Assembly: GCA_013335405.1 (NCBI GenBank)
Contig: JAAXVR010000001.1
Span: 62,001 to 126,000, forward strand
Length of the DNA stretch: 64,000 bases
Direction of reading: 5' to 3'
From: Chlorobiaceae bacterium
GTDB lineage: Bacteria; Bacteroidota; Chlorobiia; Chlorobiales; Chlorobiaceae
The position numbers and the translations under genes are program-made. The notes beneath the pieces were generated by a model, which was not told where the DNA came from, searched no databases, and saw nothing but the letters and a program-made list of their open reading frames with translations. Shown piece after piece: positions 10,101 to 59,164 of the stretch. The number at the start of each line of letters is the position of its first letter. The stretch's first letter is position 1.

Positions 10101-11461
10101 TTTGTCGTGAGGTCCCAGCACCATGAGCCGGATTTGGCAGCATCCTGTGCGAGCCTGCGGTGTTCTTCGCTCTGACGGAGCACCTCTTCCTTCTCAGCCC
10201 GCTCGATGATATCCGCCGTCTGGTTGGCAAGCAGCTCGAGCAGGGTGGAGAGCCTTTCGTCGGCAGTGCAGGTGGTGCGAAAATAGACTGACAGAATACC
10301 GAGAAGTTCACCGTTACGGCTTTTCAGCGGCGTTGACTGGATAGACTTTACGCCTGCGGTGATGTGTTCCTCGATCTCGGTGCGGTTGTCCGCAAGCGGG
10401 TATTTCGTGATATCCTCGATAACAATTCTCTGGTTCCGTTTCAGCGCCATATCGCACAGGCAGCTTCCTACGTCCGAATAATCGCAGACTTCCCTGAGCG
10501 GATGCTCGAATCCTCGCTGCTCGATAATTTTCAGATGGCCTGTTTTCGGATCGACAAGCCGTATGTTGCCCATGTCGGCTCCGGTGATTTCCATCGCGGT
10601 ATCGATCACTTTCTTGAATATTTCCTCGAGGTTGCCTTCGCGGACAAAAAGCATGGAAATATCGTGCAGTTTCAGCATCGCGCGGTAGTCGGCGTCAAGG
10701 TAACGCTGTGTCTTGAGCAACTCTTCGCCGGCCTCTTTGAGGGCTGTGATATCGACGGAATAAACGACAAACTGCCGGACCTCGCCCTCTGCATCGAGTA
10801 CCGGGGAAATATTGTGAACCCTCCATATCCCCTTGTCTTCACTTTCGAACGTGACGCGTTTGCCAGTTCTCACTACCTCTTCGATTTTCAATTCTCGCTC
10901 CCTGGCTTTTTCAGGCGAAAAAAGATCATACACCGAAATCCCGATGCAATCTTCATGGTGCCTGCCGAACCGGGAAGCGAAAGTGTCGTTGGCTTCGAGG
11001 ATAACACCCTGGCGATCGAGGAGGAACAGGGACTCAGGTATTGAATTGAAGAGGGAGCAGAGAAGGCAGGGTGCTGATTTTGGTCGGCTCGTTTCGTGGA
11101 ACATCAAGAGTGAGCCGCCAGGTTTGTCCGCATGCCGGAATGGAATGATCTTCCCTGCGATAGGCAGTGCGGTTCCGTTTCGGGTGAATATTTCACTCTC
11201 AAATTCAGCAATTCCGTTGCTTGTTTTTTCAGCAATGAATCTCGACAAACAATCCCCGGCAACCGGTTTTTTTTTCAGGTGCGGAAGATTGAGGACAACT
11301 TCAAGCATGCGGAATTCAGCGTCACTGATTTGCCAGCCGGTCAGCTTTTCGGCCGCAGCATTCATCATCTCGACAAGGTTCTCCCTGTCGAGCAGAATAA
11401 CGGCTTCGTTCATGTTGTCCAGAATGATGGATGTCATGTGCTTGTTTGAAAGCCGATCCAT
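7118..11461 (-). CDS. Giant hybrid histidine kinase with multiple PAS domains, GAF and one receiver
   Basis: A 1447-residue soluble-looking sensor kinase. Reading through it I count about seven PAS units (roughly 1-125, 130-245, 420-545, 545-665, 665-790, 795-920 and 925-1050), most closing with the DxTERK-type linker, plus one GAF domain near 260-410 between the second and third. They are followed by HisKA with SHEIRTP (His1089), HATPase_c with DTGIGIPP and a GSGLGL box, and a single receiver with the acidic pair in IAEDDE, phospho-acceptor Asp1380 in LMDIKMPQLNGYD and KP near the end. There is no output domain, so the phosphate probably passes to a separate Hpt or regulator. PAS and GAF arrays sense redox, light, gas or small ligands; which of these applies cannot be read from the sequence. 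The start ATG has only a weak AAAGATTG site. No other gene shares the transcription unit. Confidence 0.95.
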   Translation of the reverse strand: MDRLSNKHMTSIILDNMNEAVILLDRENLVEMMNAAAEKLTGWQISDAEFRMLEVVLNLPHLKKKPVAGDCLSRFIAEKTSNGIAEFESEIFTRNGTALPIAGKIIPFRHADKPGGSLLMFHETSRPKSAPCLLCSLFNSIPESLFLLDRQGVILEANDTFASRFGRHHEDCIGISVYDLFSPEKARERELKIEEVVRTGKRVTFESEDKGIWRVHNISPVLDAEGEVRQFVVYSVDITALKEAGEELLKTQRYLDADYRAMLKLHDISMLFVREGNLEEIFKKVIDTAMEITGADMGNIRLVDPKTGHLKIIEQRGFEHPLREVCDYSDVGSCLCDMALKRNQRIVIEDITKYPLADNRTEIEEHITAGVKSIQSTPLKSRNGELLGILSVYFRTTCTADERLSTLLELLANQTADIIERAEKEEVLRQSEEHRRLAQDAAKSGSWCWDLTTNRSVWSEELWALYGLEQGSCEPLYETWISSIHPDYRDQVEQKVQEAAREGTELQVEWLVRNNEGGERWIMSRGRPICNASGKPVKMIGIVMDVTDRKMTEKHLIESIERHRSLFNNTLNGVAYCRMIFENGEPVDFVHEEVNSQFTLLTGLTDLEGRKASEVIPGLRETNPAFFEKLGKVVTTGIPDRFEMYFEMLDMWLDIMAYRHKEGCFVALFDVITERKKTETALLESERKFRSITEQMSEVVFVIDSAGMVTYVSEAVEKMFGYRNKEEVSGLPFTEFIAEQEITRAMEIFRTTLENESADRVLEIQLKRKNGSHFFGEVHIRNYRDSKLPGVIGLIRDVTERRNNENKRREYEQILLESRQFLQSIYDAVSYSIFVIDVLQGGIFRFRGINRNHEINTGFSDDEVAGKTPEELFEPETATVMKRHLEYCIEKGRPVQTLEHLPIKGKDTIWETNLTPLRNDAGYIYRIIGTSSNITERKLAEDELKRLSVAVQQSPAVVVITDPEGNIEYINPTFTKHTGYTLDEVKGQNPRVLQSGMMAKEVYENLWETILSGNVWYGEFHNKKKNGDLYWEEAVVSAIRNEEGAITNYVAVKEDITEKKKLWSDLVAAKEKAEESDRLKSAFLANISHEIRTPMNGILGFSELLKEPHLSGEEQQEYIDLIQLSGERMLSLINDLIDISRIEAGETMLQIAQTPINGLLHELFAFFKPQAENRGLQLNCITGLRDSDCIIETDSTKLNQVMTNLIQNALKFTSEGHIDFGYAIHGSTIEFFVRDTGIGIPPEMQDRVFDRFRQLDNSLTRNHEGSGLGLCISRAYVEMLGGTIRVVPVEGPGSRFIFTLPYNPPKSPSSPCEQTADIVVEPAVPPPSLTILIAEDDEVSRLLLKKIFSGENIRILFALTGTEAVEMVEKHPEIDVVLMDIKMPQLNGYDATRLIKQKRPELAVIAQTAFSMTDERKKAMEAGCDGFIVKPVKKHELLELMKELLIL

Positions 11462-39297: not shown

Positions 39298-41733
39298 GTG
39301 GCAAAAAAAACAAAAATCGCCAGAGAGAACGGTAAAACAGGCAAAACGCCAATCGACAGGGATATCCTGACGAAAGAGCTGACAGGTATCCTGCTCATGC
39401 TGCTTTCGCTTTTCCTCATCTGCGCCATCCTGAGTTTCCATCCGGAAGACGAAACCGCGTTCGGTACCCTCGCCTGGCATGATATCTTCAGCAAGGCCGC
39501 AGGTGAAGCCGCACGCGAAATCCGAAATCCCTTCGGCCTTATCGGAGCTCGGCTTTCCTCCTTTTTCATCCGGTCCTTCCTGGGCTATCCCTTCATTCTC
39601 ACCATTCTTTCGGTGCTCTACTGCGGATGGTCGGTGATTCGTTCGAACAGCCTCAAGCCGGCCCTTTTCTTTTTTCTTTACAGCGCGTTTATTACCGTCG
39701 ATGCCGCCCTCATGTTCGGGTTGACCTCGGAGCCTTACAGCGACGTGATGTCAGGAGCAATCGGGCGGATGCTCGCCTCCCTCCTCTCGCGTGCTATCGG
39801 TATGACGGGAGCATGGGTTTTTGCCGGAGTTGTCGCCCTTCTGCTTACGTTCTACATGGGGCGAAATGTCCTGACGGCACTTTCGGAAGGAGCTTCGACA
39901 CTGAACGCGGGTATTTCCGGTTCGCTTTCCGGCCTCGGCGCATGGCTGGCTGAAAGACGTAAAAAAAAAGATGAAAACCGGAGAGTGAAGGAAGCAGAAA
40001 GGCGGGAGAAGCAGGAGCACCGGCTTGGAGAAAAGGCTGAAAAGAAAAAAAAACCGCAGAGTGATTCCCCCCTTTCACACGCCACCGTCATCGACGGTTC
40101 AATTCCGGAGGACCTCTCTTTTCAGGCGCCTCCTCCTGCAACTCCCCCTGAAGAAACTCCTCTTCCGCAGCTTCCCGGCGAGCCCGAAATGGTTATTCGT
40201 CAGGGCGTACGAGAAAAGGAAGCCGATCTTGACGAACGGCAGATGAAGGTGAAAACCAGGGACAGGGAGCCCTACCGGTTCCCTTCCGTCGACCTGCTTG
40301 AAAAAAGTACCGACGACGGCGACCGGATCGACGAACACCAGCTCGCCGAAAGCAAGAGGAAGCTGCTCGAGAAGCTCAATATCTACAAAATCGAGGTGGT
40401 GAGGATTTCCACCACGGTTGGACCGCGCGTCACGCTGTTCGAAATGGAACTGGCGCCGGATGTGAAGGTCAGCCGGGTAAAGGCTCTGGAGAACGACCTC
40501 GCCATGGCTCTCGCCGCCAGGGGTATCAGGATCATCGCGCCGATTCCGGGCAAAAATGCGGTAGGGGTCGAAATCCCGAACGGCAAGCCCAAAAACGTTC
40601 TGCTTCGCTCGGTGCTGCAGGTCGAAAAGTTCAAGAACAGCAAGCTGACACTGCCCGTCGTCCTGGGAAAAACCATCGCGAACGAGGTCTACATCGACGA
40701 CCTCACGGCCATGCCCCACCTCCTCATCGCCGGTGCCACCGGAGCCGGAAAGTCGGTCTGCATCAATGTCATCATCTCCAGCCTCCTCTATTCCTGCAGC
40801 CCTGACAAGGTGCAGTTCGTGCTGATCGATCCGAAAAGGGTGGAACTCTTCCATTACCAATATCTGAAAAATCATTTTCTTGTCCGTTTTCCCGGCCTCG
40901 ATGAACAGATCATCACGGACCCGCAGAAAGCGGTCTATGCACTCAAGTGCGTCGAAAAGGAGATGGAGCACCGGTATGAAACTCTCGAGAAAGCGGGTGT
41001 CCGCAATATCGGCGACTACAACCGCCGCAAACCTGCCGAGGCAATGTTCTATCTCGTGGTCGTGATCGACGAACTGGCTGACCTCATGATAACCGCAGGA
41101 AGGGATGTCGAGGAACCCATCACGAGGCTCGCTCAGCTTTCGAGGGCTGTCGGCATTCACCTCATCGTGGCTACCCAGCGTCCCTCGGTGGATGTCATCA
41201 CCGGTATCATCAAGGCCAATTTCCCTTCGAGGATAGCATTCCAGGTGGCAAGCAAGGTGGATTCCCGCACGATACTCGACGGCTCCGGGGCTGAGCAGCT
41301 GCTCGGCAACGGCGACATGCTCTACCAGCCTGCAAGCCAGCCAAAGTCCATGAGGCTGCAGAGTCCGTATGTCTCTTCAGGTGAAGTGGAAGCGATCACC
41401 ACGTTCATCGGGAACCAGCATGCATTGAAGAACATCTACATGCTCCCTGCGGGGGAGATGCAGAAAGGGAACCAGAACTCGCAGGGCTACCAGGAAAAGG
41501 AAGGAAGGGACAGCATGTTCGAGGATGCTGCGCGGCTTGTGGTCATGCATCAGCAGGCAAGCGTTTCGCTGCTTCAGCGGAGGCTCAGGCTTGGTTTCAG
41601 TCGTGCGGCAAGGGTCATGGACCAGCTCGAATACAACGGGATCGTCAGCCAGGCTGACGGAAGCAGGCCAAGGGAAGTCCTCGTCAGCAATGAAGACTCC
41701 CTCGAACTGTTATTGAGAAACCTCGACGATTGA
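39298..41733 (+). CDS. ftsK: DNA translocase FtsK/SpoIIIE
   Basis: An 811-residue FtsK. Membrane helices fill about 25-190. They are followed by a charged linker rich in Lys, Arg and Pro (about 215-320), then the alpha/beta motor with Walker A GATGAGKS (479-486) and Walker B VVVIDELADL. The winged-helix gamma domain (about 745-811) recognises polar KOPS-type sites. The protein pumps the chromosome terminus through the closing septum and activates XerCD. The start codon is GTG; no ATG lies nearby before the first membrane helix. It is convergent with the nifU-like gene, seven bases away. Confidence 0.95.
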   Translation: MAKKTKIARENGKTGKTPIDRDILTKELTGILLMLLSLFLICAILSFHPEDETAFGTLAWHDIFSKAAGEAAREIRNPFGLIGARLSSFFIRSFLGYPFILTILSVLYCGWSVIRSNSLKPALFFFLYSAFITVDAALMFGLTSEPYSDVMSGAIGRMLASLLSRAIGMTGAWVFAGVVALLLTFYMGRNVLTALSEGASTLNAGISGSLSGLGAWLAERRKKKDENRRVKEAERREKQEHRLGEKAEKKKKPQSDSPLSHATVIDGSIPEDLSFQAPPPATPPEETPLPQLPGEPEMVIRQGVREKEADLDERQMKVKTRDREPYRFPSVDLLEKSTDDGDRIDEHQLAESKRKLLEKLNIYKIEVVRISTTVGPRVTLFEMELAPDVKVSRVKALENDLAMALAARGIRIIAPIPGKNAVGVEIPNGKPKNVLLRSVLQVEKFKNSKLTLPVVLGKTIANEVYIDDLTAMPHLLIAGATGAGKSVCINVIISSLLYSCSPDKVQFVLIDPKRVELFHYQYLKNHFLVRFPGLDEQIITDPQKAVYALKCVEKEMEHRYETLEKAGVRNIGDYNRRKPAEAMFYLVVVIDELADLMITAGRDVEEPITRLAQLSRAVGIHLIVATQRPSVDVITGIIKANFPSRIAFQVASKVDSRTILDGSGAEQLLGNGDMLYQPASQPKSMRLQSPYVSSGEVEAITTFIGNQHALKNIYMLPAGEMQKGNQNSQGYQEKEGRDSMFEDAARLVVMHQQASVSLLQRRLRLGFSRAARVMDQLEYNGIVSQADGSRPREVLVSNEDSLELLLRNLDD

Positions 41734-48719: not shown

Positions 48720-49436
48720 TTATCCGAGGTATGCTTCGATGACGGAGGGATCTCTTGCCAGTTCGGAGCTTGGCCCTTCGAGCACTACCGTTCCATTTTC
48801 GAGGATATATGCCCTGTCAGACACGGCGAGGGCATTTTTTGCGAACTGTTCGGAAAGAAGAATGGTCGTTCCTGCCCTGCGTAAACCCACGATTGCCTCG
48901 AATACTTCTTTCAGAACGATGGGAGCGAGCCCCAGTGACGGCTCGTCGAGTATCACCATGCGCGGTTTGGCCATGAGCACCCGTCCGATAGCGAGCATCT
49001 GCTGTTCGCCGCCCGAAAGGCTTCCGGCCTGCTGCGACTTCCTGTCCATCAATATCGGGAACATCCCGTAGATTTTCTCGAGATCTCCCGATGCTTTTTT
49101 TCGGAACGGACCTATGGACGGGAGCCGGGGGAATGCTCCAAGGAGCAGGTTTTCCTCGACGGAAAGCGGGGCGAAGACTCGTCGGCCTTCCGGGCAGAGG
49201 CAAAGGCCTTTTCTCGATATGCTGCTGGCACATAGCCCGGTAATATCCCGCCCGTTGAAAACAATACGTCCTTTCTCAGGGATGAGAAGCCCGCAAAGTG
49301 TTTTTGCGAGTGTGCTTTTACCAGCCCCGTTTGCGCCGACAAGTGCAACGCAGCTTCCTTCGGGCACTTCTATGGTAATCCCCTTGAGAACGTTGGACCC
49401 TCCATATCCGGCGAATATGTTTTCAGCTTTCAGCAT
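48720..49436 (-). CDS. livF: Branched-chain amino acid ABC transporter ATPase, LivF type
   Basis: A 238-residue ABC ATPase with Walker A GANGAGKST (34-42), signature LSGGEQQMLAIGRVLM and Walker B MVILDEPSLGLAP, the last being typical of LivF. It powers the importer together with the LivG domain encoded just upstream. Its start overlaps the livMG stop by seven bases, so the two are translationally coupled. Confidence 0.92.
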   Translation of the reverse strand: MLKAENIFAGYGGSNVLKGITIEVPEGSCVALVGANGAGKSTLAKTLCGLLIPEKGRIVFNGRDITGLCASSISRKGLCLCPEGRRVFAPLSVEENLLLGAFPRLPSIGPFRKKASGDLEKIYGMFPILMDRKSQQAGSLSGGEQQMLAIGRVLMAKPRMVILDEPSLGLAPIVLKEVFEAIVGLRRAGTTILLSEQFAKNALAVSDRAYILENGTVVLEGPSSELARDPSVIEAYLG

Positions 49437-51343
49437 GACAGTATTGCATGATTATCCCCGGAAGACGGGACGGTCTCTTCGCCTCCGAGGTAAGCCTCGA
49501 CAACCAGCGGGTCTCTCCTGATTTCCTCCGGTGTTCCCAGAGCGATCAATCTTCCGCCGTTCATCACAGCCACGCGGTTGCAGACCTCGGTGATGACATC
49601 CTGATGGTGCTCGATGATCAGTATGGTGATACCGTAATCCCTGATGGATGAAATAAGCTCAATGAGTCGGGCGATATCGGGTTTGGCCATTCCCGCGGCA
49701 GGTTCGTCAAGCAGGAGCAGGGAGGGTTGCGTTGCGAGCGCTCTGCCGATTTCAAGGAATCTCAAATCTCCGAACGAAAGTTCGGAACAACGGAGGCGGG
49801 CTTTGCTTTCCAGGCCGACAATTTGCAGAAGCGCCATGGCAGCCGGTTTATCGATTTTTCTCTGACAGACCGTAATCGATTCGAGTGCGGTCAGGCTGGA
49901 AAATGGCTGCAGGTTCTGGAAGGTCCGGGAAGCCCCTGCCGCAGATGCTGCCATAAGACTGCCCTGCCGGATCCGCCTGCCGGAAATTTCCACGGAGCCT
50001 TCATCGGGAGCGTAGAGGCCGGTTACGAGGTTGATAAGCGTTGTTTTTCCTGATCCGTTCGGGCCGATAAGACCAAGGATTTCGCCCTGTTCTGTTGCTA
50101 TCGATATATCCCGGACTGCAATGACGCCTCCGAAAGACTTGGAGATATTTCTGGTACGGAGAGGTGCAGTGTCGGAAGGAGCAGGTTCGGATATTCCGCC
50201 GGTTGCCGCCGGAAGAGGTTCAGGCGAAAACCGCAACAGGTTCCGGATTTCAGACACAAGTGCGCCGGTGATGCCTTCGGGAAGACCGACCACGGCAGAA
50301 AAGAGGAAGAGCGCGAAAATTCCTTTACGCCACAGTTCGAGGTTCGGGACGAAAAGGGCGAGGGCGAAGCACAGGGCCATGCCAGCGGCTGGTGCGCTTT
50401 CGCTGAATGCAGGACGTCTGCGGGCAAGAAGAGCCTTGAGTGGGGCAGTAAATGCGACCAGGCAGCCGAGGGTTACGAAAACAGAAAACATCATCCTGTT
50501 CGAAAGCAGGTTCGGAAGCATGGTAACGGCGGCCGCTCCTGTAAAAGCTCCCCATTGGTTGCGTCTGCCGCCGAATACAACGCCGAGCAGAAGGATCACC
50601 ATGAGGTCATAGCCGAACGCCGAAGGCTGAAGATAGCCGAAATTCATCACATGCAGCCCCCCGGCAAAGCCTGCAAGCGAGCTTCCCCAGGCAAAGGCAA
50701 CTGCTTTGTGTTTCAATGATCCAATGCCGAGGGCGTCCGTAGCCGTCGGCGAATCCCTCAAGGCTTCGATTGCCAGTCCGATACGTGATTTGAAGAGCAG
50801 TCCGGATGCCCACCAGACTGCGGAGAGGACGATGAGGCAGAACCAGTAGAATCTCCGTGCATCGAGTTCCATTGAAAAAAAGAGAGGCCGCGGCACAGAA
50901 ATGCCGAGCGCCCCGTTCGTGATGGATTCGCTCTCGTTGAGAACAATGACAGCGAGTGATGCGAACGAGAGCGTGGAGAGCGCAAATTGCGGTCCATCGA
51001 GCCGTAATGAAGGCAGGGCGAGAGCGGCCCCGGGAAGGAGCGCTGCCATGACGCCTGCCAGCAATGCCAGCGAAAAAGGGAGTCCGCTCTGTATTGCAAG
51101 CGCGGTGCCGTAAGCACCGAGCCCGAAGAGAGCTGCCTGGGCGAGGTTTACCTGCCCGAGGTAGCCGACCGTGGCGTCAAGTCCGATAAGCAGGATGCCG
51201 TAAACAGCCATGAGCGTCAGGAGGCCGAGGGCGTACTGGCTCTGCCAGATCATAGGCAGGAAAGCGAGGAAGCAGAAAAGCGCCAGCCGCGCCAGATGTT
51301 CCGCAGTTTTTTCCTTTATTCCCAGGTTGATACCGCCGGACAT
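49430..51343 (-). CDS. livMG: Fused LivM permease and LivG ATPase of a branched-chain amino acid ABC transporter
   Basis: A 637-residue fusion. The first half is the LivM permease, with about eight to ten membrane helices and the family signature GYLGQVNLAQAALFGLGAYGTA. A linker of about 50 polar residues follows (near 335-395). Then comes a complete LivG ATPase: SFGGVIAVRDIS, Walker A GPNGSGKTT (G427 to T435), signature ELSFGDLRFLEIGRALA and LLLDEPAAGMA. In most bacteria these are two genes. I begin at MSGGINLG; the frame is open 116 codons further upstream, but that part overlaps livH and is arginine-rich nonsense. Confidence 0.9.
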   Translation of the reverse strand: MSGGINLGIKEKTAEHLARLALFCFLAFLPMIWQSQYALGLLTLMAVYGILLIGLDATVGYLGQVNLAQAALFGLGAYGTALAIQSGLPFSLALLAGVMAALLPGAALALPSLRLDGPQFALSTLSFASLAVIVLNESESITNGALGISVPRPLFFSMELDARRFYWFCLIVLSAVWWASGLLFKSRIGLAIEALRDSPTATDALGIGSLKHKAVAFAWGSSLAGFAGGLHVMNFGYLQPSAFGYDLMVILLLGVVFGGRRNQWGAFTGAAAVTMLPNLLSNRMMFSVFVTLGCLVAFTAPLKALLARRRPAFSESAPAAGMALCFALALFVPNLELWRKGIFALFLFSAVVGLPEGITGALVSEIRNLLRFSPEPLPAATGGISEPAPSDTAPLRTRNISKSFGGVIAVRDISIATEQGEILGLIGPNGSGKTTLINLVTGLYAPDEGSVEISGRRIRQGSLMAASAAGASRTFQNLQPFSSLTALESITVCQRKIDKPAAMALLQIVGLESKARLRCSELSFGDLRFLEIGRALATQPSLLLLDEPAAGMAKPDIARLIELISSIRDYGITILIIEHHQDVITEVCNRVAVMNGGRLIALGTPEEIRRDPLVVEAYLGGEETVPSSGDNHAILSC

Positions 51344-51354
51344 AGACTTGTTTT

Positions 51355-52239
51355 TTAAACTTTTCGGATTATGGTTTTCCCGAAGATTCCCTGGGGACGG
51401 AGGGCGAGGGCCAGCATCAGAAGAACGAGTCCGGGTGTTTCGCGCCAGCCGCTTCCGAGCATGAACCCGGCGAGGTTTTCCGCGGAACCGAGGAAGATTC
51501 CGGTCAGCACGAGACCGATTGCGCTGTCGAGCCCGGCTACTACCGCGACAGAGAACGCCTTCAGTGTCAGTGCGGCAGCCATGGTGGGGCCGACGGTCGT
51601 AACCGGGGCGATGATCGTGCCGGCAAAAGCCGCCGCCGCTCCCGAAACCGCCCATGAGAGCGAGGTGGCGGCGTCTGAACGGATCCCGCAAAGTTCCGCC
51701 GCGTCCGGATCCGCACTTACCGCCTGGACTGCAATGCCTGTCATCGTGTACCGTTTTGCGATTTCGACGAGGAGCATGACACCAAGGGCTCCTCCGGCGA
51801 CAGCCAGTTCCGGCCAGGTTACGGATATGCCGAAGATGTCGATGGAGCCATCATCCCAGGGTGCAGGGTAGGGCAGGTCTTCCCGACCCCAGATATTCTC
51901 GGCGGCCGAAACGGCGAAAAGACCGAGGATGATCGTGAGCAGTATCCATCCTTCGTTATGCTGTTTCAAGGCAAGCCGGACGGCGGATTTTTCGACGAAC
52001 CATCCGAGCGCCGCGCCTGCGGCTACAGCGCCGGAGATCGATGCCCAGTAAGGCAGACCGGTGCCTGTCAGGGTAAGGCCGATGAATGCGCCGAGCATGA
52101 CCAGTTCTCCCTGGCCGAAGTTTACGGCTTTGCCTGCGGCAAAGGTAAGCTGGAAGCCATAAGCGACCAGAGCGTATGCCATGCCCATGAGGCCGCCGCT
52201 GACAGCCATCTGGGCATACGCGAGCAATTCCGGGTTCAT
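51355..52239 (-). CDS. livH: Branched-chain amino acid ABC transporter permease, LivH type
   Basis: A 294-residue membrane protein with eight or so helices and the LivH signatures GLMGMAYALVAYGFQLTFAA, VNFGQGELVMLGAFIGLTL and AAALTLKAFSVAVVAGLDSA. It pairs with the LivM half of the fusion to form the channel. It ends 11 bases before the fusion start, in the middle of the operon. Confidence 0.92.
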   Translation of the reverse strand: MNPELLAYAQMAVSGGLMGMAYALVAYGFQLTFAAGKAVNFGQGELVMLGAFIGLTLTGTGLPYWASISGAVAAGAALGWFVEKSAVRLALKQHNEGWILLTIILGLFAVSAAENIWGREDLPYPAPWDDGSIDIFGISVTWPELAVAGGALGVMLLVEIAKRYTMTGIAVQAVSADPDAAELCGIRSDAATSLSWAVSGAAAAFAGTIIAPVTTVGPTMAAALTLKAFSVAVVAGLDSAIGLVLTGIFLGSAENLAGFMLGSGWRETPGLVLLMLALALRPQGIFGKTIIRKV

Positions 52240-52268
52240 AAGCTGTTCAGGGGTTCCTGATGATTCAT

Positions 52269-53498
52269 TTATTTGCCCGGACCTCTTTCAAGCACAGCCC
52301 TGTCTGCGGGATCGGCCAGGACGACCCTGCCGTTCTGTACTTTGCCCATGACGGTGAACGCCCTTCTGAAAGCTTCATGGGATTCCTCGTTTGCCGGACT
52401 CCATTTTGACCAGGGTTTTTTCCAGTCGGCGATAGCCCCCTTCACGACACCGGTGAGATTTTCCAGTGCCGCCTTGATTTTCGAGGGCTGCGTCGATCCG
52501 GCTTCATGGATGGCTTCGGCCAGGAGCAGGGTGGCATCGTAACCCTGTGCTGCAGATACAGGCGACGGAATCCTTGCTACCCGGTATGCCTGACGGTAAG
52601 CCATGATGAAGGGTTTAGCCCTTGCGACCGACAGGTCTTCGATGAACGTCTGCGGCATGAGCGCTCCGTTCCCGGCAGGTCCCGCCGTATCGATGAAGTT
52701 GCTCATCGAGAGTGTCCATCCGCCGATGAGGGGAACGTTGTAGCCAAGTTTTTTCTTGCCGGAAGCCACTGCAGCAAGTTCAGGTCCTATACCCCAGATC
52801 AGGATAGCCTGGGCGCCTGCCATTCTCGCCTTGATAAGCTGTCCGGTCATGTCCTTGTTGCCGACCGCAAATTTTTCGATGTCGACGACACTCAGTCTTC
52901 CCGCCTGATTCCGGACCTGGAAGAGAAGGTCATCCCGTCCCGAAACACCGTAATTGGTATCATCGTGGAAAATAGCGACTTTTCTGATGCCGAGTTTAAC
53001 AGCCTGTTCCACAACCATCCGGGACTGGATACCGTCATGCGCTGCAAAGCGGAAAATCGGCAGATCAGCTGCACCTGCCCTGCTCCACTGTGTCATCGAA
53101 GCGCTTCCAGCAGCGGGGGTTATGATCTTGACGATGCCTTTCTGTACATAATATTTGTCGCCCATTACCGCTACACCGGTGTTCACGGTTCCGATGACTG
53201 CCGAGACGTCGTTCATCGATGATATCTCCTGTGCGATGAGCGCCCCCCGATCGTTTTTTCCTTCGTCGTCCCTTTCAATAACCTCTATCTGCATTTTTTT
53301 TCCGCCTACAAGAATACCACCTCTCCGGTTGATCTGTGAAACGGCAAGTTTTGCCCCATCCCTCATCGAAATACCCATAGGGGCCGAGCCTCCGGAGAAC
53401 GGTCCGGTGACGGCGATTTTTACGACGTCGGCGGCCCTGACGTCAGAAGGGAGTGATAAGGCGACCAGAAACGCAAGAATGGAACGAAATGCTTTCAT
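52269..53498 (-). CDS. livK: Periplasmic substrate-binding protein of the branched-chain amino acid type (LivK/Peripl_BP_6)
   Basis: A 409-residue binding protein. The signal peptide ends near Ala22 (DVRA-ADVV). The two-lobe type I fold contains VKIAVTGPFSGGSAPMG, GAKLAVSQINRRGGILVGGK, VIGTVNTGVAVM and AQGYDATLLLAEAI. It delivers the ligand to LivH/LivM in the inner membrane. The family also binds amides, urea and aromatic acids, so leucine, isoleucine or valine is a default and not a proven ligand. It is the first gene of the operon. Confidence 0.87.
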   Translation of the reverse strand: MKAFRSILAFLVALSLPSDVRAADVVKIAVTGPFSGGSAPMGISMRDGAKLAVSQINRRGGILVGGKKMQIEVIERDDEGKNDRGALIAQEISSMNDVSAVIGTVNTGVAVMGDKYYVQKGIVKIITPAAGSASMTQWSRAGAADLPIFRFAAHDGIQSRMVVEQAVKLGIRKVAIFHDDTNYGVSGRDDLLFQVRNQAGRLSVVDIEKFAVGNKDMTGQLIKARMAGAQAILIWGIGPELAAVASGKKKLGYNVPLIGGWTLSMSNFIDTAGPAGNGALMPQTFIEDLSVARAKPFIMAYRQAYRVARIPSPVSAAQGYDATLLLAEAIHEAGSTQPSKIKAALENLTGVVKGAIADWKKPWSKWSPANEESHEAFRRAFTVMGKVQNGRVVLADPADRAVLERGPGK

Positions 53499-53884: not shown

Positions 53885-54358
53885 ATGCCCCGCTATACAC
53901 CGGAACAGCTCGCGAAAAGGAACGCTTCCGTCTGGACCGATATACAGATAATTCTCGCTCCGGTCCAGTTCATTTTTTTCGTTATCGGGGTTGTCGTCAC
54001 CACGCTCTATGCCAACGGCATCATTGTGAACGGTTTTTACTGGGTAAGCATCGCGATCCTGTTCAAGACACTTTTTTTCGGCCTGCTGTTTACCACAGGC
54101 ATGTTTTTCGAAAAGGAGATATTCAATCAGTGGGTGTATTCGAAGGAGTTTCTCTGGGAGGATATCGGCAGTACGATAGCCGCTTTTTTCCATCTCCTCT
54201 ATTTCTATCTCGCCTTTTTCAACTATCCCGTCGAAGTGCTTATCTGGGATGCCTATCTCGCGTATTTCACCTATGTAGTCAATGCCATGCAATACCTTCT
54301 GAGAATCATACTCGAGAAACGAAACGAAAGAAGGCTCAGGATGGAAGGCCATATCTGA
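53885..54358 (+). CDS. bchV: Bacteriochlorophyllide C-3 vinyl hydratase (BchV/BchF family)
   Basis: A 157-residue membrane protein matching the BchF/BchV family from end to end: start [13 protein letters not shown], then [15 protein letters not shown], a central IKT/LFKTLFF-type helix, [20 protein letters not shown] and a C-terminal [10 protein letters not shown]. About four membrane helices are visible. The enzyme adds water to the 3-vinyl group on the way to bacteriochlorophyll a, c, d or e. Green sulfur bacteria have two paralogues. I prefer bchV because the RuBisCO-like protein gene lies a few genes away, as I remember for C. tepidum, while bchF sits with bchC and bchX. A strong GAGGAG site fixes the start. 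Confidence 0.82.
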
Positions 54359-54394
54359 CAGGGGGAGAATTGACAACCAGATGGATGTGAACTC

Positions 54395-54610
54395 ATGAAA
54401 TACAGTTTTAAAAAGCTATGGAATACCATGTTTCTTTTCATCGGTTCCGGCTGGTATATCCTTGTCTGGATGATCTGGTCATCCGGCCAGCTCCAGACGG
54501 TCGATGAAAAGCTGATTTTTCTCGGTGTTGTTGTACCCGGTTTTCTCCTGATTTATTTTGCAGGCTTCTGGATCGAAGGCTGGCACAAAAAGAAGCATGG
54601 CGCCGGCTGA
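54395..54610 (+). CDS. Small two-helix membrane protein
   Basis: A 71-residue protein with two membrane helices (about 11-29 and 41-60) and a basic C-terminus (HKKKHGAG). It lies 36 bases after bchV on the same strand and before the aldolase-dehydrogenase. I do not recognise a family. Its position suggests it is co-expressed with the vinyl hydratase; a stabilising or assembly role is only a guess. No strong ribosome-binding site is visible, but the hydropathy pattern and tight spacing argue that it is a real gene. Confidence 0.6.
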   Translation: MKYSFKKLWNTMFLFIGSGWYILVWMIWSSGQLQTVDEKLIFLGVVVPGFLLIYFAGFWIEGWHKKKHGAG

Positions 54611-54683: not shown

Positions 54684-56801
54684 ATGCAGAACAGCTGGAA
54701 TGATGCTGATCTTCAAAGCTCCATACAGGAGTTTTCGGGAACCCCCGAACTTGCGGCCGAACTTGCCGAACTTGTTTACGTTTCGAGGCTTCTCGGCAGC
54801 GAGAACTCTCTCGTCATGCATGGCGGGGGCAACACATCGGTGAAATGCGAGCTTGTCGACATGGTTGGAAACCGTGTCGACGTGCTTCTCATCAAGGCAA
54901 GCGGTGTCGACCTGAGCCGCGTCACCGGCCACGATTATACCCCGGTAAAGCTTGCCCCCCTGCGCAACCTCGGGCATCTTTTCAAGGAGAACGATCGTAT
55001 CAGCGATGAGGAACTGCAGCGTTTTTCAACGAAAGAATTCAAGCACATCCTCCTCCTGAACCTTTTCAGCCTCACGGACCATATAGCCGAGAAGCGGCTG
55101 ACTCCGTCAATCGAAACGCTTCTGCACGCATTCCTCCCTCACCGGTACATCCTGCATACCCACTCGCTCGCGCTTTTGACGCTCAGTAACCAGCCGGACG
55201 GTGAAACGATCTGCAGGGAAGTTCTCGGCACCGGTTTCGGATCGGTGCCCTATATCAAGCCCGGCCTTCATCTTGCTCTTTCCGCACTGGATGCTTATGA
55301 AAAGCACCGGGAGATCGAAGGTCTCGTGCTTCAGAAACACGGACTTGCAACATTCGGGAACACGGCAAGGGAAGCCTATGACCGCATGATTGAAGCAGTC
55401 ACCAGAATAGAGAAGCGGATTGACGCTGCCGGAAGGAAGCATTTCGCAAAGTCACCTCTTCCCCTGGCGATAGCTCCGCTCGAAGATGTCGCCCCGATTA
55501 TCAGGGGAGCCTGTGTCGAGGAGAAAATTCCGGGCATGCGGGACTACGACGAATTTATCCTCGATTTCAGGACATCGCCTGAAATCCTGGACTATGTCAA
55601 CAGTGCCGATCTGGTCAAAATGAGCCGGAAAGGGGCGATGACACCAGATTTCATCATCCGGACGAAGAACAGGCCGCTCGTCGTTCCGGCCCCTGACGCG
55701 GAGGATCCTGCAGGATTCCGCAACTCCGTCCATGAAGCGGTCGAACGTTACCGCGAGGAATACACGACGTATTTCGATACCCAGAAAGAGGCGTCGGGTA
55801 TTGATGTACGCATGCTCGACCCGCTGCCGAGGGTGGTGCTCGTTCCCGGCCTTGGGCTGTTCGGTCTTGGCAGGACCTTCGATGCCGCATCGGTTAACGC
55901 CGATATTGCGGAAAGTACGGCGTCGGCGATACTCGATGCGGAAACGCTCGGCTGTTTCGAGTCCATCAACGACCGCCAGGTGTTTGAAATAGAATACTGG
56001 GATATGGAGCAGGCCAAGATGAACAAGGTTCACAACGATGTGCTTGCCGGCAAGGTGGTCATGGTTTCAGGCGCTGCCAGCGGCATCGGCCTCGCTACCG
56101 CGAAAGCATTCCGCAGCAAGGGCGCAGAGCTTGTCATTCTCGATCTCTCCCGTGAGGCGCTCGACAGTGCAGCCGCAGAGATCGGAGGCAATGCGCTCGC
56201 GATAACCTGTGACGTCACCTCCCGGGAGGATGTTCGTGCCGCATTTCTGGGCGCTTGCCGGAAATTCGGGGGTATAGACATTGTGGTATCGAACGTTGGT
56301 GCCGCTTTCCAGGGTCGCATCGGTGATGTATCCGATGCGGTGCTTCGCAAGAGCTTCGAACTGAATTTTTTCTCGCACCAGTATATATCCCAGGAAGCGG
56401 TCAGAATCATGAGGCTTCAGGGTACGGGCGGCGTTCTGCTTTACAATGTCTCCAAGCAGGCGGTGAACCCCGGTCCGGATTTCGGCCCGTACGGTCTTCC
56501 GAAAGCGGCGACAATGTTCCTCGTTCGCCAATACGCTCTCGATCACGGCCGTGACGGTATCCGTGCCAACGGTATCAATGCCGACCGTATCCGGACAGGC
56601 CTTCTTACCGCAGAAATGATCAAGTCGCGCTCGAATGCAAGGGGCCTGAGTGAACGGGAATATATGGCGGGCAACCTCCTTCAGCTCGAAGTGACCGCCG
56701 AAGATGTTGCACAGGCGTTCGTGCATCTTGCGCTCGAAACGAAAACCACGGGCTCCATCATCACGGTGGATGGCGGCAATATCGCTGCAGCGTTGCGCTG
56801 A
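54684..56801 (+). CDS. Bifunctional class II aldolase / short-chain dehydrogenase (rhamnulose-phosphate aldolase-lactaldehyde dehydrogenase type)
   Basis: A 705-residue fusion. The first 430 residues form a class II aldolase: GGGNTSVK (48-54), catalytic Glu144 in PSIETLLHA, zinc ligands His158 and His160 in HTH, and a third histidine in LQKHGLATFG. From about residue 450 there is a complete SDR: GAASGIG dinucleotide motif, NVGA strand, and catalytic Tyr603-GLP-Lys607. This fusion is known from rhamnose breakdown, where it splits rhamnulose-1-phosphate to DHAP and lactaldehyde and then acts on the aldehyde. No rhamnose isomerase or kinase is here, and obligate phototrophs do not use rhamnose, so another deoxyketose phosphate is likelier. 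It is the first enzyme of the aldolase/RuBisCO-like cluster. Confidence 0.85.
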   Translation: MQNSWNDADLQSSIQEFSGTPELAAELAELVYVSRLLGSENSLVMHGGGNTSVKCELVDMVGNRVDVLLIKASGVDLSRVTGHDYTPVKLAPLRNLGHLFKENDRISDEELQRFSTKEFKHILLLNLFSLTDHIAEKRLTPSIETLLHAFLPHRYILHTHSLALLTLSNQPDGETICREVLGTGFGSVPYIKPGLHLALSALDAYEKHREIEGLVLQKHGLATFGNTAREAYDRMIEAVTRIEKRIDAAGRKHFAKSPLPLAIAPLEDVAPIIRGACVEEKIPGMRDYDEFILDFRTSPEILDYVNSADLVKMSRKGAMTPDFIIRTKNRPLVVPAPDAEDPAGFRNSVHEAVERYREEYTTYFDTQKEASGIDVRMLDPLPRVVLVPGLGLFGLGRTFDAASVNADIAESTASAILDAETLGCFESINDRQVFEIEYWDMEQAKMNKVHNDVLAGKVVMVSGAASGIGLATAKAFRSKGAELVILDLSREALDSAAAEIGGNALAITCDVTSREDVRAAFLGACRKFGGIDIVVSNVGAAFQGRIGDVSDAVLRKSFELNFFSHQYISQEAVRIMRLQGTGGVLLYNVSKQAVNPGPDFGPYGLPKAATMFLVRQYALDHGRDGIRANGINADRIRTGLLTAEMIKSRSNARGLSEREYMAGNLLQLEVTAEDVAQAFVHLALETKTTGSIITVDGGNIAAALR

Positions 56802-57862: not shown

Positions 57863-59164
57863 ATGAACAAAGAGGATATACAGGGTTTTTTTACGACAAG
57901 GGAACAGCTTCAGATGGCTGATTACCTGACGCTTGATTATTACCTTGAATGTGTGGGCGACATCGAAACCGCCCTTGCACATTTCTGCAGCGAGCAGTCG
58001 ACTGCCCAGTGGAAGCGCGTCGATTATGACGAGGACTTCAGGCCGAGATATGCCGCAAAGGTGATCAGTCTTACCGTCGAGGGCGAACTTCAGGCCCTGA
58101 GTTATCCCGTCAGCCATTTCGAAACCGGTCCCATTCATGCATGTCGGGTCACGATTGCACATCCTCACCGCAATTTCGGTCCCAAGCTTCCGAATCTCCT
58201 CTCAGCGGTCTGCGGGGAAGGGGTTTTCTTCACCCCCGGCGTACCTGTCGTCAAACTTCTCGATATCGGTTTTCCTGAGCCCTACCTGAATGAGTTCGAA
58301 GGTCCCAAATTCGGTATCGACGGAATCCGCGATCTCCTGAAAGCGTATAACAGGCCGATATTCTTCGGTGTCGTGAAACCGAACATTGGTCTCAGCCCCG
58401 AGCATTTTGCCGAAATTGCCACCGAGAGCTGGCTTGGCGGGCTCGATATCGCTAAAGATGACGAGATGCTTGCCGATGTTGCCTGGTCGACACTCGATGA
58501 GCGCTCGAGAGTGCTCGGTGAAGCGAGGCGCAGGGCAGAAAAGGATACGGGCGAACCGAAAGTCTACCTTGCGAATGTGACAGACGAGGTCGACCGACTT
58601 GTCGAACAGCATGACATCGCAATCAGGAACGGTGCGAACGCTCTTCTCGTCAACGCCCTTCCTGTCGGTCTCAGCGCGGTGAGGATGCTTGCAAAACATA
58701 CGAAAGTCCCTCTGATCGGGCATTTCCCGTTTATCGCCTCTTTCAGCCGCATGGAAAAATTCGGTGTGCATTCCAGAGTCATGACCAAGCTTCAGCGGCT
58801 TGCCGGCCTCGATTCGATCATCATGCCAGGGTTCGGCAGCAGGATGATGACTCCTGAAGAGGAGGTCAGGGAGAATATCAGGGAGTGCCTGCAGGATTTC
58901 GGGCATATCAGACGTTCACTGCCCGTCCCGGGCGGGAGCGATTCCGCCCTGACGCTCGAAACCGTTTATCGGAAGGTCGGCAGTGTGGATTTCGGTTTTG
59001 TGCCCGGCAGGGGAATATTCGGTCATCCCATGGGTCCAAGGGCAGGGGCGACCAGTATTCGCCAGGCCTGGGAAGCAATCGAAAAAGGCGTTTCGCTTGA
59101 AAGGTACTCCGAAGGGCGAAAAGAGCTGAAAGCGATGATAGACGCCGCTTACGAAAAAAAGTAG
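57863..59164 (+). CDS. RuBisCO-like protein, form IV (photo type)
   Basis: A 433-residue RuBisCO large-subunit homologue that cannot be a carboxylase. Matching the RuBisCO active site by eye: Lys172 (position 175) is kept, Lys177 is replaced by Asn174, the carbamate lysine (Lys198) with Asp200 and Glu201 in IAKDDE is kept, and His287 (position 294) is kept. Loop 6 reads GFGSRM, so Lys334 is Arg326, and His327 is lost. The start [10 protein letters not shown] and the early stretch [13 protein letters not shown] agree with the green sulfur bacterial type. In related species the knockout affects sulfur oxidation and oxidative stress; the true reaction is not established to my knowledge. Form IV enzymes typically enolise or isomerise sulfur- or deoxy-pentulose phosphates. 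Confidence 0.95.

Follow-up and report, generated by a model that had tools for sequence, protein, structure and literature searches.

A small two-helix membrane protein encoded beside BchV-type vinyl hydratases in the Chlorobiaceae, a candidate accessory subunit

Background

The closest described enzymes are the BchV/BchF C-3(1) vinyl hydratases (PF07284, TIGR02020). According to the accessible sections of a 2020 review (PMC7242693), BchF gives mainly the R epimer and is common to bacteriochlorophyll (BChl) a synthesis, BchV favours multiply methylated substrates and gives mainly the S product, and both recombinant enzymes are active in vitro. The same sections describe the function of a third vinyl hydratase as unknown and find it unclear why these green sulfur bacteria have two or three of these enzymes; the bchV phenotype given there is a reduced amount of BChl c that is mostly R, with few 8-isobutyl homologues (PMC7242693). 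The third C-3 vinyl hydratase of brown strains is called bchF2 in the available parts of PMC3613366 and bchF3 in those of PMC6639628; in the portions of text available, the gene-map figure of PMC3613366 aside, published accounts name bciD, cruB and the hydratase and no small gene. The parts of the literature covered by our search mention no second protein for the BchV/BchF hydratases.

CydX and similar proteins are small one- or two-helix accessory subunits of membrane enzymes. The protein described here is likewise tiny, hydrophobic, conserved and encoded beside a large subunit. It differs from the CydX-like subunits in its partner, which is a pigment-modifying hydratase, and neither profile comparison (best E 0.14) nor fold comparison relates it to any solved structure. 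The small gene is undescribed in the accessible parts of the literature searched, a scope that lies outside the primary BchV papers (PMC6639628, PMC3613366, PMC7242693, PMC8302410; likewise PMC8232776, PMC9066304, PMC10158934 and PMC8163819).

The gene pair and its neighbours

The window is the whole stretch of DNA that was analysed, 64,000 nucleotides from a Chlorobiaceae bacterium (contig JAAXVR010000001.1, positions 62,001 to 126,000). The gene pair and two neighbours outside the unit are as follows.

53885..54358, + strand: bchV-branch C-3 vinyl hydratase (BCHF family), membrane protein, 157 aa (Pfam BCHF, TIGR02020, tree side)
54359..54394, + strand: intergenic gap between hydratase and small gene, 36 bases
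54395..54610, + strand: 71-aa two-helix membrane protein, proposed accessory subunit of BchV-type hydratases (conservation, purifying selection, hairpin model, linkage)
54684..56801, + strand: neighbour outside the unit, bifunctional aldolase/short-chain dehydrogenase (SDR), head of the RuBisCO-like protein (RLP) cluster (NF006193, 1335 bits, cut-off 1213)
57863..59164, + strand: neighbour outside the unit, RLP (RuBisCO_large, E 9.7e-51)

The hydratase is a clear member of its family, on the bchV branch, with scores well above the cut-offs of both Pfam BCHF (PF07284; E 4.8e-53, 179.4 bits, cut-off 25) and NCBIfam TIGR02020 BchF (196 bits, cut-off 101.35); a sequence search of the PDB returned 0 matches up to E 1. 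The small gene (54395-54610, +) opens with an ATG 36 bases after the bchV stop, and its 71-residue product, MKYSFKKLWNTMFLFIGSGWYILVWMIWSSGQLQTVDEKLIFLGVVVPGFLLIYFAGFWIEGWHKKKHGAG, matches no hydratase model. In relatives the spacing of the two genes varies: in 10 of 92 distinct pairs they overlap by 4 bases (ATGA), and at the other extreme they lie about 120 bases apart. An earlier note on this DNA had described a vinyl hydratase gene (bchV/bchF) followed by a 71-residue, two-helix protein of no recognised family, which Pfam, NCBIfam and AlphaFold2 confirmed. It had also placed the pair at the start of a RuBisCO-like cluster, and the pair indeed heads the RLP cluster, followed on the same strand by the aldolase/SDR gene, a DeoC-type aldolase, the RLP gene and an SDR gene.

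Upstream of bchV, on the opposite strand (49430-53498, -), lies a transporter set of the branched-chain amino acid type, with a binding protein, a permease and a 753-aa frame resembling a fused permease and ATPase; the labels, except that of the binding protein, were assigned by eye. The set occupies the same spot in some relatives (e.g. L096, L097 and L114) and is missing from others.

Properties of the small protein

Family searches placed the small protein in no curated family. Pfam gave nothing above cut-off, NCBIfam no match up to E 1, and PHROGs a weak match only (E 0.31). The best match of its profile among PDB sequences was a photosystem I subunit at E 0.14, and a Foldseek search of the PDB with its model gave 0 matches. 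The best Pfam match, Spirocyclase AveC-like (PF17198; AveC_like), was rejected at E 0.021 and 14.7 bits against a curated cut-off of 26.6; it was matched by 1 of 65 members. Membership of DUF6404 (PF19942) was rejected as well, all bit scores observed being 13.2-19.9 (19.9 for the best of the small-protein members scanned singly) and thus below the curated cut-off of 27.6. A weak likeness to this family was seen in 29 of 65 members (best E 1.5e-4), and the sole two matches at E <= 0.01 in 41 genomes were class II small genes (classes are defined below). The DUF6404 model exceeded its cut-off in an E. coli control and in 0 of the 41 genomes; as the bit scores fall below the curated cut-off, we treat DUF6404 as a lead only.

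AlphaFold2 (65 rows) predicts a hairpin of two helices, residues 5-29 and 36-69, with a mean pLDDT of 91. Positive residues occur at both termini which, by the positive-inside rule, suggests that both ends are cytoplasmic. Nine residues are invariant in 92 distinct copies (F5, L8, W9, N10, W20, W28, S30, Y54 and G57), and M1 is invariant in 30 aligned rows. From alignment A3, 12 of 76 locus sequences were omitted by hand, mostly close duplicates and one with an unset start. Around each of the two helices the conserved residues are unevenly spread, with 17 and 25 of 2000 shuffles as strong. One conserved face per helix would suit protein contact, with lipid or pigment contact also possible.

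The small gene is a real gene under strong purifying selection on its protein. Compared with its counterpart in L094, whose protein is 86% identical, it differs at 6, 0 and 32 sites in codon positions 1, 2 and 3. The median dN/dS was 0.14 (172 of 231 class I pairs, those with pS below 0.70), a rough figure because many pairs are near saturation.

Linkage to one hydratase branch

In the extracted loci, 92 distinct full-length hydratases were paired with the small gene and 39 were unpaired (5 of 136 hydratases, being fragments, were omitted), and none of the 143 small-gene matches, overlapping loci included, was unpaired. Each copy there follows a bchV-branch hydratase gene closely and on the same strand, and none adjoins bchF. 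Pairs were classed by context, with 3 of the 92 having too little flank for a class. Class I, the 67 distinct pairs with bchV at the RLP cluster, was defined by an aldolase/SDR gene within 2.5 kb. Class II comprises 12 pairs with no marker genes nearby, class III 7 pairs upstream of bciD, and class IIIb 3 pairs beside an SDR gene, 2 of them also beside a BchQ-like gene.

A first, unrooted tree of 113 of the 118 BCHF rows was split by a branch with support of 100/99 (5 hydratase fragments under 120 residues were omitted, and the midpoint root served for drawing only). The small gene lies directly downstream in 78 of the 79 rows on the bchV side; in the lone exception, L085, the contig edge falls 1 base after the hydratase. 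On the other side, made up of 21 bchF and 13 order-level hydratases, it follows 0 of 34, including L075 with just 248 bases of downstream sequence. An open reading frame of 321-337 residues follows 11 of the 13 order-level hydratases and resembles, by eye, the presumed bchC beside bchF in L188, which marks these hydratases as bchF-type.

The same division was recovered in a second tree, built from 86 of the 131 full-length rows (22 of the 67 class I rows and all others). All rows with the small gene, together with L085, fall on one side (48 rows, support 100/98), which holds the bchV of the window, the L185 gene, the 7 bciD-linked hydratases of class III, the 3 of class IIIb and the class II rows; the opposite side holds 25 bchF and 13 order-level rows. 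The class II rows cluster together among those of bchV (support 100/98), and classes III and IIIb branch outside the bchV rows. The L185 hydratase adjoins a BchQ-like gene and stands apart from the bchF of the bchFCX arrangement; its genome, G060, we take to be that of Chlorobaculum tepidum, and the names bchV, bchQ, bchC and bchX in G060 and the bchF loci are likewise our assignments. As the hydratase of the window (L001) and the L185 gene share a side (support 100/98), the former groups with the BchV branch.

The linkage does not depend on recognising the small gene by homology. Open reading frames of 45-120 residues were scanned at three thresholds for two hydrophobic segments; at two thresholds such a frame immediately followed all 92 paired hydratases and none of the 38 testable unpaired ones, and at the strictest threshold 90 of 92 and 0 of 38. 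Distances between hydratases and between small proteins are correlated (r 0.86 over the 92 pairs and 0.78 in class I alone), as expected for any two linked genes. For both proteins, nearest neighbours belong to the same context class in 89 of 89 rows, the 3 rows with too little flank being omitted. Three hydratase positions (55, 65 and 102) passed the thresholds for branch-specific residues, too few to define an interface. The strict co-occurrence and co-mobility with the enzyme gene looked for in an accessory subunit were both found.

Distribution among genomes

A first search found the small gene in 25 of 25 genomes of the genus (own genome included) and in none of 16 more distant genomes. 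Across the family it occurs in 79 of 86 genomes, and in 64 of the 65 that are of good quality. Absence from related genomes, which the earlier note had named as the outcome that would count against its idea, was looked for, and the result did not refute the idea. The gene does not extend to all Chlorobi: it is conserved beside bchV across the family, but a profile search did not find it in 12 other genomes of the order, each with a BCHF match. Because many of the rows represent close relatives and the two genome collections share members (identical sequences were merged), these counts are not independent events and the trees and neighbourhood groups are better measures.

By plain counts, small copies equalled BCHF matches minus one in 77 of 86 genomes, some of which (G093) also rest on hydratase fragments. 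The nine exceptions comprised four genomes with neither a small gene nor a BCHF match (G043, G048, G058 and G063), three drafts 81-88% complete with one of each gene (G014, G019 and G095), and two in which hydratases are cut by contig ends (G008, 5 and 3; G092, 2 and 0). In G053, bchF is present and the small gene absent; RLP survives there only as a fragment at a contig start, so this lack is probably an assembly gap and was not counted as a natural loss. The missing small copies in G053 and G082 may both be assembly gaps.

Each of 103 small copies found by profile has a hydratase or hydratase fragment directly upstream, among the matches listed, as judged by comparing positions by hand with those of BCHF matches, partly via the extracted loci. 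At least two small copies occur in 23 of 86 genomes. No bciD match was found in 15 of these 23, so additional BchV-type hydratases also occur outside the bciD genomes. The genome of the window is one example: it holds a bchF without the small gene on contig 59 and a second hydratase-small gene pair (L081, G000:C9; small gene 10569-10790, +) whose small protein is 53% identical. No pigment gene was recognised among the flanking proteins scanned at this second pair, and the genome has no bciD match.

Neighbourhoods of the pair

When grouped at the nucleotide level by blastn, 28 pairs (6 of class I) fell into 10 downstream groups and 27 upstream stretches into 10 groups; ten neighbourhoods is an upper figure, as such grouping can split diverged relatives. 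Comparison of the contexts shows that the hydratase and the small gene have, to judge from gene arrangement, been duplicated and moved together.

The gene bciD was found in 9 of 86 genomes, its label resting on an exact 20-base match in L172 to a published primer for Chlorobaculum limnaeum bciD (PMC3613366). In all 8 genomes that could be tested, bciD is preceded by the small gene on the same strand, within about 310 bases; seven of these loci were classed in the extracted loci, and the eighth, G094, was assessed from coordinates and L181. These bciD-linked hydratases share a tree side with the window hydratase, and their small gene, directly upstream of bciD, is what distinguishes the loci from the available portions of the published accounts of the third hydratase.

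Two side observations concern the same loci. L192 (G043:C13), from the ninth bciD genome, has just 28 bases of contig upstream of bciD, the expected place of the pair; the G043 draft is rated 99% complete and has bciD, and no BCHF gene was detected in it. In L175 and L178 bciD is followed by an aldolase/SDR gene with about 70% identity to that of the RLP cluster, and these loci thereby join the two neighbourhoods, RLP-cluster and bciD, that hold the hydratase-small gene pair.

Proposed role and alternative explanations

The small protein family is, on the genome evidence, bound to the chlorosome-specific vinyl hydratases. The linkage makes it very likely that the protein is functionally coupled to the hydratase. 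In our reading it is probably an accessory subunit dedicated to the BchV-type vinyl hydratases, which are the isoenzymes reserved for the chlorosome pigments BChl c, d and e. That the coupling takes the form of direct physical contact, as a subunit of the enzyme, is what we infer and on balance favour. The suggestion in the earlier note of an overlooked factor in chlorosome bacteriochlorophyll synthesis is well motivated by the linkage to bchV-branch hydratases; assistance of the enzyme is the part that goes beyond it.

A subunit of this kind could act as follows. The hairpin, with both ends in the cytoplasm, would sit against the multi-pass hydratase and touch it through one conserved face per helix (F5, L8-W9-N10, W20 and W28; Y54 and G57). 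It would stabilise the hydratase or shape its pocket, allowing bulky, multiply methylated 3-vinyl bacteriochlorophyllides to undergo hydration, with the S epimer as the main product, and to be handed on within the membrane. The recombinant BchV preparations presumably held BchV alone; if so, the small protein would not be needed for basic catalysis. As recombinant BchV is active, the expected effect is on stability, substrate range, stereochemistry or membrane placement, not on the chemistry itself. Tentatively, the protein might affect stereochemistry or substrate range rather than mere stability. A bolder and rather doubtful version is that the chlorosome-specific vinyl hydratases are two-component enzymes in which the hairpin sets the preference for multiply methylated substrates and the S configuration at C-3(1), unlike BchF. 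If that were true, the two or three hydratases would be explained as one-component (BchF) and two-component (BchV and the third hydratase) enzymes.

The new result is the linkage of the small gene to one hydratase branch. As the small protein distinguishes the BchV-type isoenzymes from BchF, it offers a genetic handle on why there are several hydratases, and work on BchV alone may miss a component.

The strongest competitor is a functional partner that forms no complex: the small protein would handle the substrate or product of the BchV step, for example in delivering bacteriochlorophyllide to BchK or the nascent chlorosome, and would merely be co-expressed. The same linkage facts (78/79 against 0/34 hydratases; 143 matches, 0 unpaired) speak for it, as does the fact that both recognised pigment neighbourhoods, one with a BchQ-like gene and one with bciD, relate to pigments of the chlorosome. 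A general carrier, however, would be expected once per genome and would serve bchF products too, whereas the small gene is duplicated with bchV-branch hydratases and both proteins keep to the same context classes (89/89 rows), which makes a general pigment carrier less likely. We consider a partner outside any complex unlikely overall.

Passive hitchhiking, in which a gene selected for an unrelated role is kept beside bchV by synteny, would account for the conservation of the whole neighbourhood within class I, but class II and III pairs stay together across several neighbourhoods. Among the 143 matches in extracted loci no small copy lacks a hydratase, and no stand-alone small-gene copies were found in the genomes searched. 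We judge this explanation very improbable.

Still less probable is a role in an RLP sulfur or stress pathway, with bchV adjoining by chance. The aldolase/SDR gene of the RLP cluster does lie within 2.5 kb in 67 of 92 distinct pairs, which is the definition of class I, but neither an RLP nor an aldolase/SDR match lies that close to any of the 12 class II pairs. Among nine genomes chosen from the 86 for this check, an RLP match was absent from G001 (99% complete) and G004 (85%), both of which keep the hydratase-small gene pair, and in G022, G062 and G067 RLP lies apart from the pairs, on another contig or, in G062, about 87 kb away. As the pair persists without RLP, the small gene goes with the hydratase, and an RLP-pathway role is largely refuted. 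The tie to the RuBisCO-like protein drawn in the earlier note thus found no support. Hanson and Tabita are said to have observed in 2001 that loss of RLP lowers BChl c; such an effect was not found in the accessible parts of the literature searched.

The least probable alternative is a translational or regulatory element, in which the frame matters for coupling or mRNA folding and the peptide does little; the short gap and the ATGA overlap in 10 of 92 distinct pairs would suit it, but the frame lies downstream of the hydratase and not upstream, amino acids and not bases are conserved (6/0/32 against L094; median dN/dS 0.14), and nine residues are invariant in 92 copies.

BchQ-like genes

The idea that the small gene simply tracks BchQ methylation was rejected. 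A BchQ-like match (55-59% identity) occurs in all 12 order-level relatives and none has the small gene, so methylation capacity does not predict it. G001 keeps the pair, and a search at E 1e-60 gave no BchQ-like match above 32% in that genome. Its class II hydratase (G001:C7; L154 and L090) breaks off after residue 117 and continues in another frame, and the adjoining small gene is open. The genome of the window carries two BchQ-like radical SAM genes close together (G000:C43:36256-37620 and 39479-40843); their identities to the BchQ-like gene of G060 are 68 and 70%, with one TGA inside each match.
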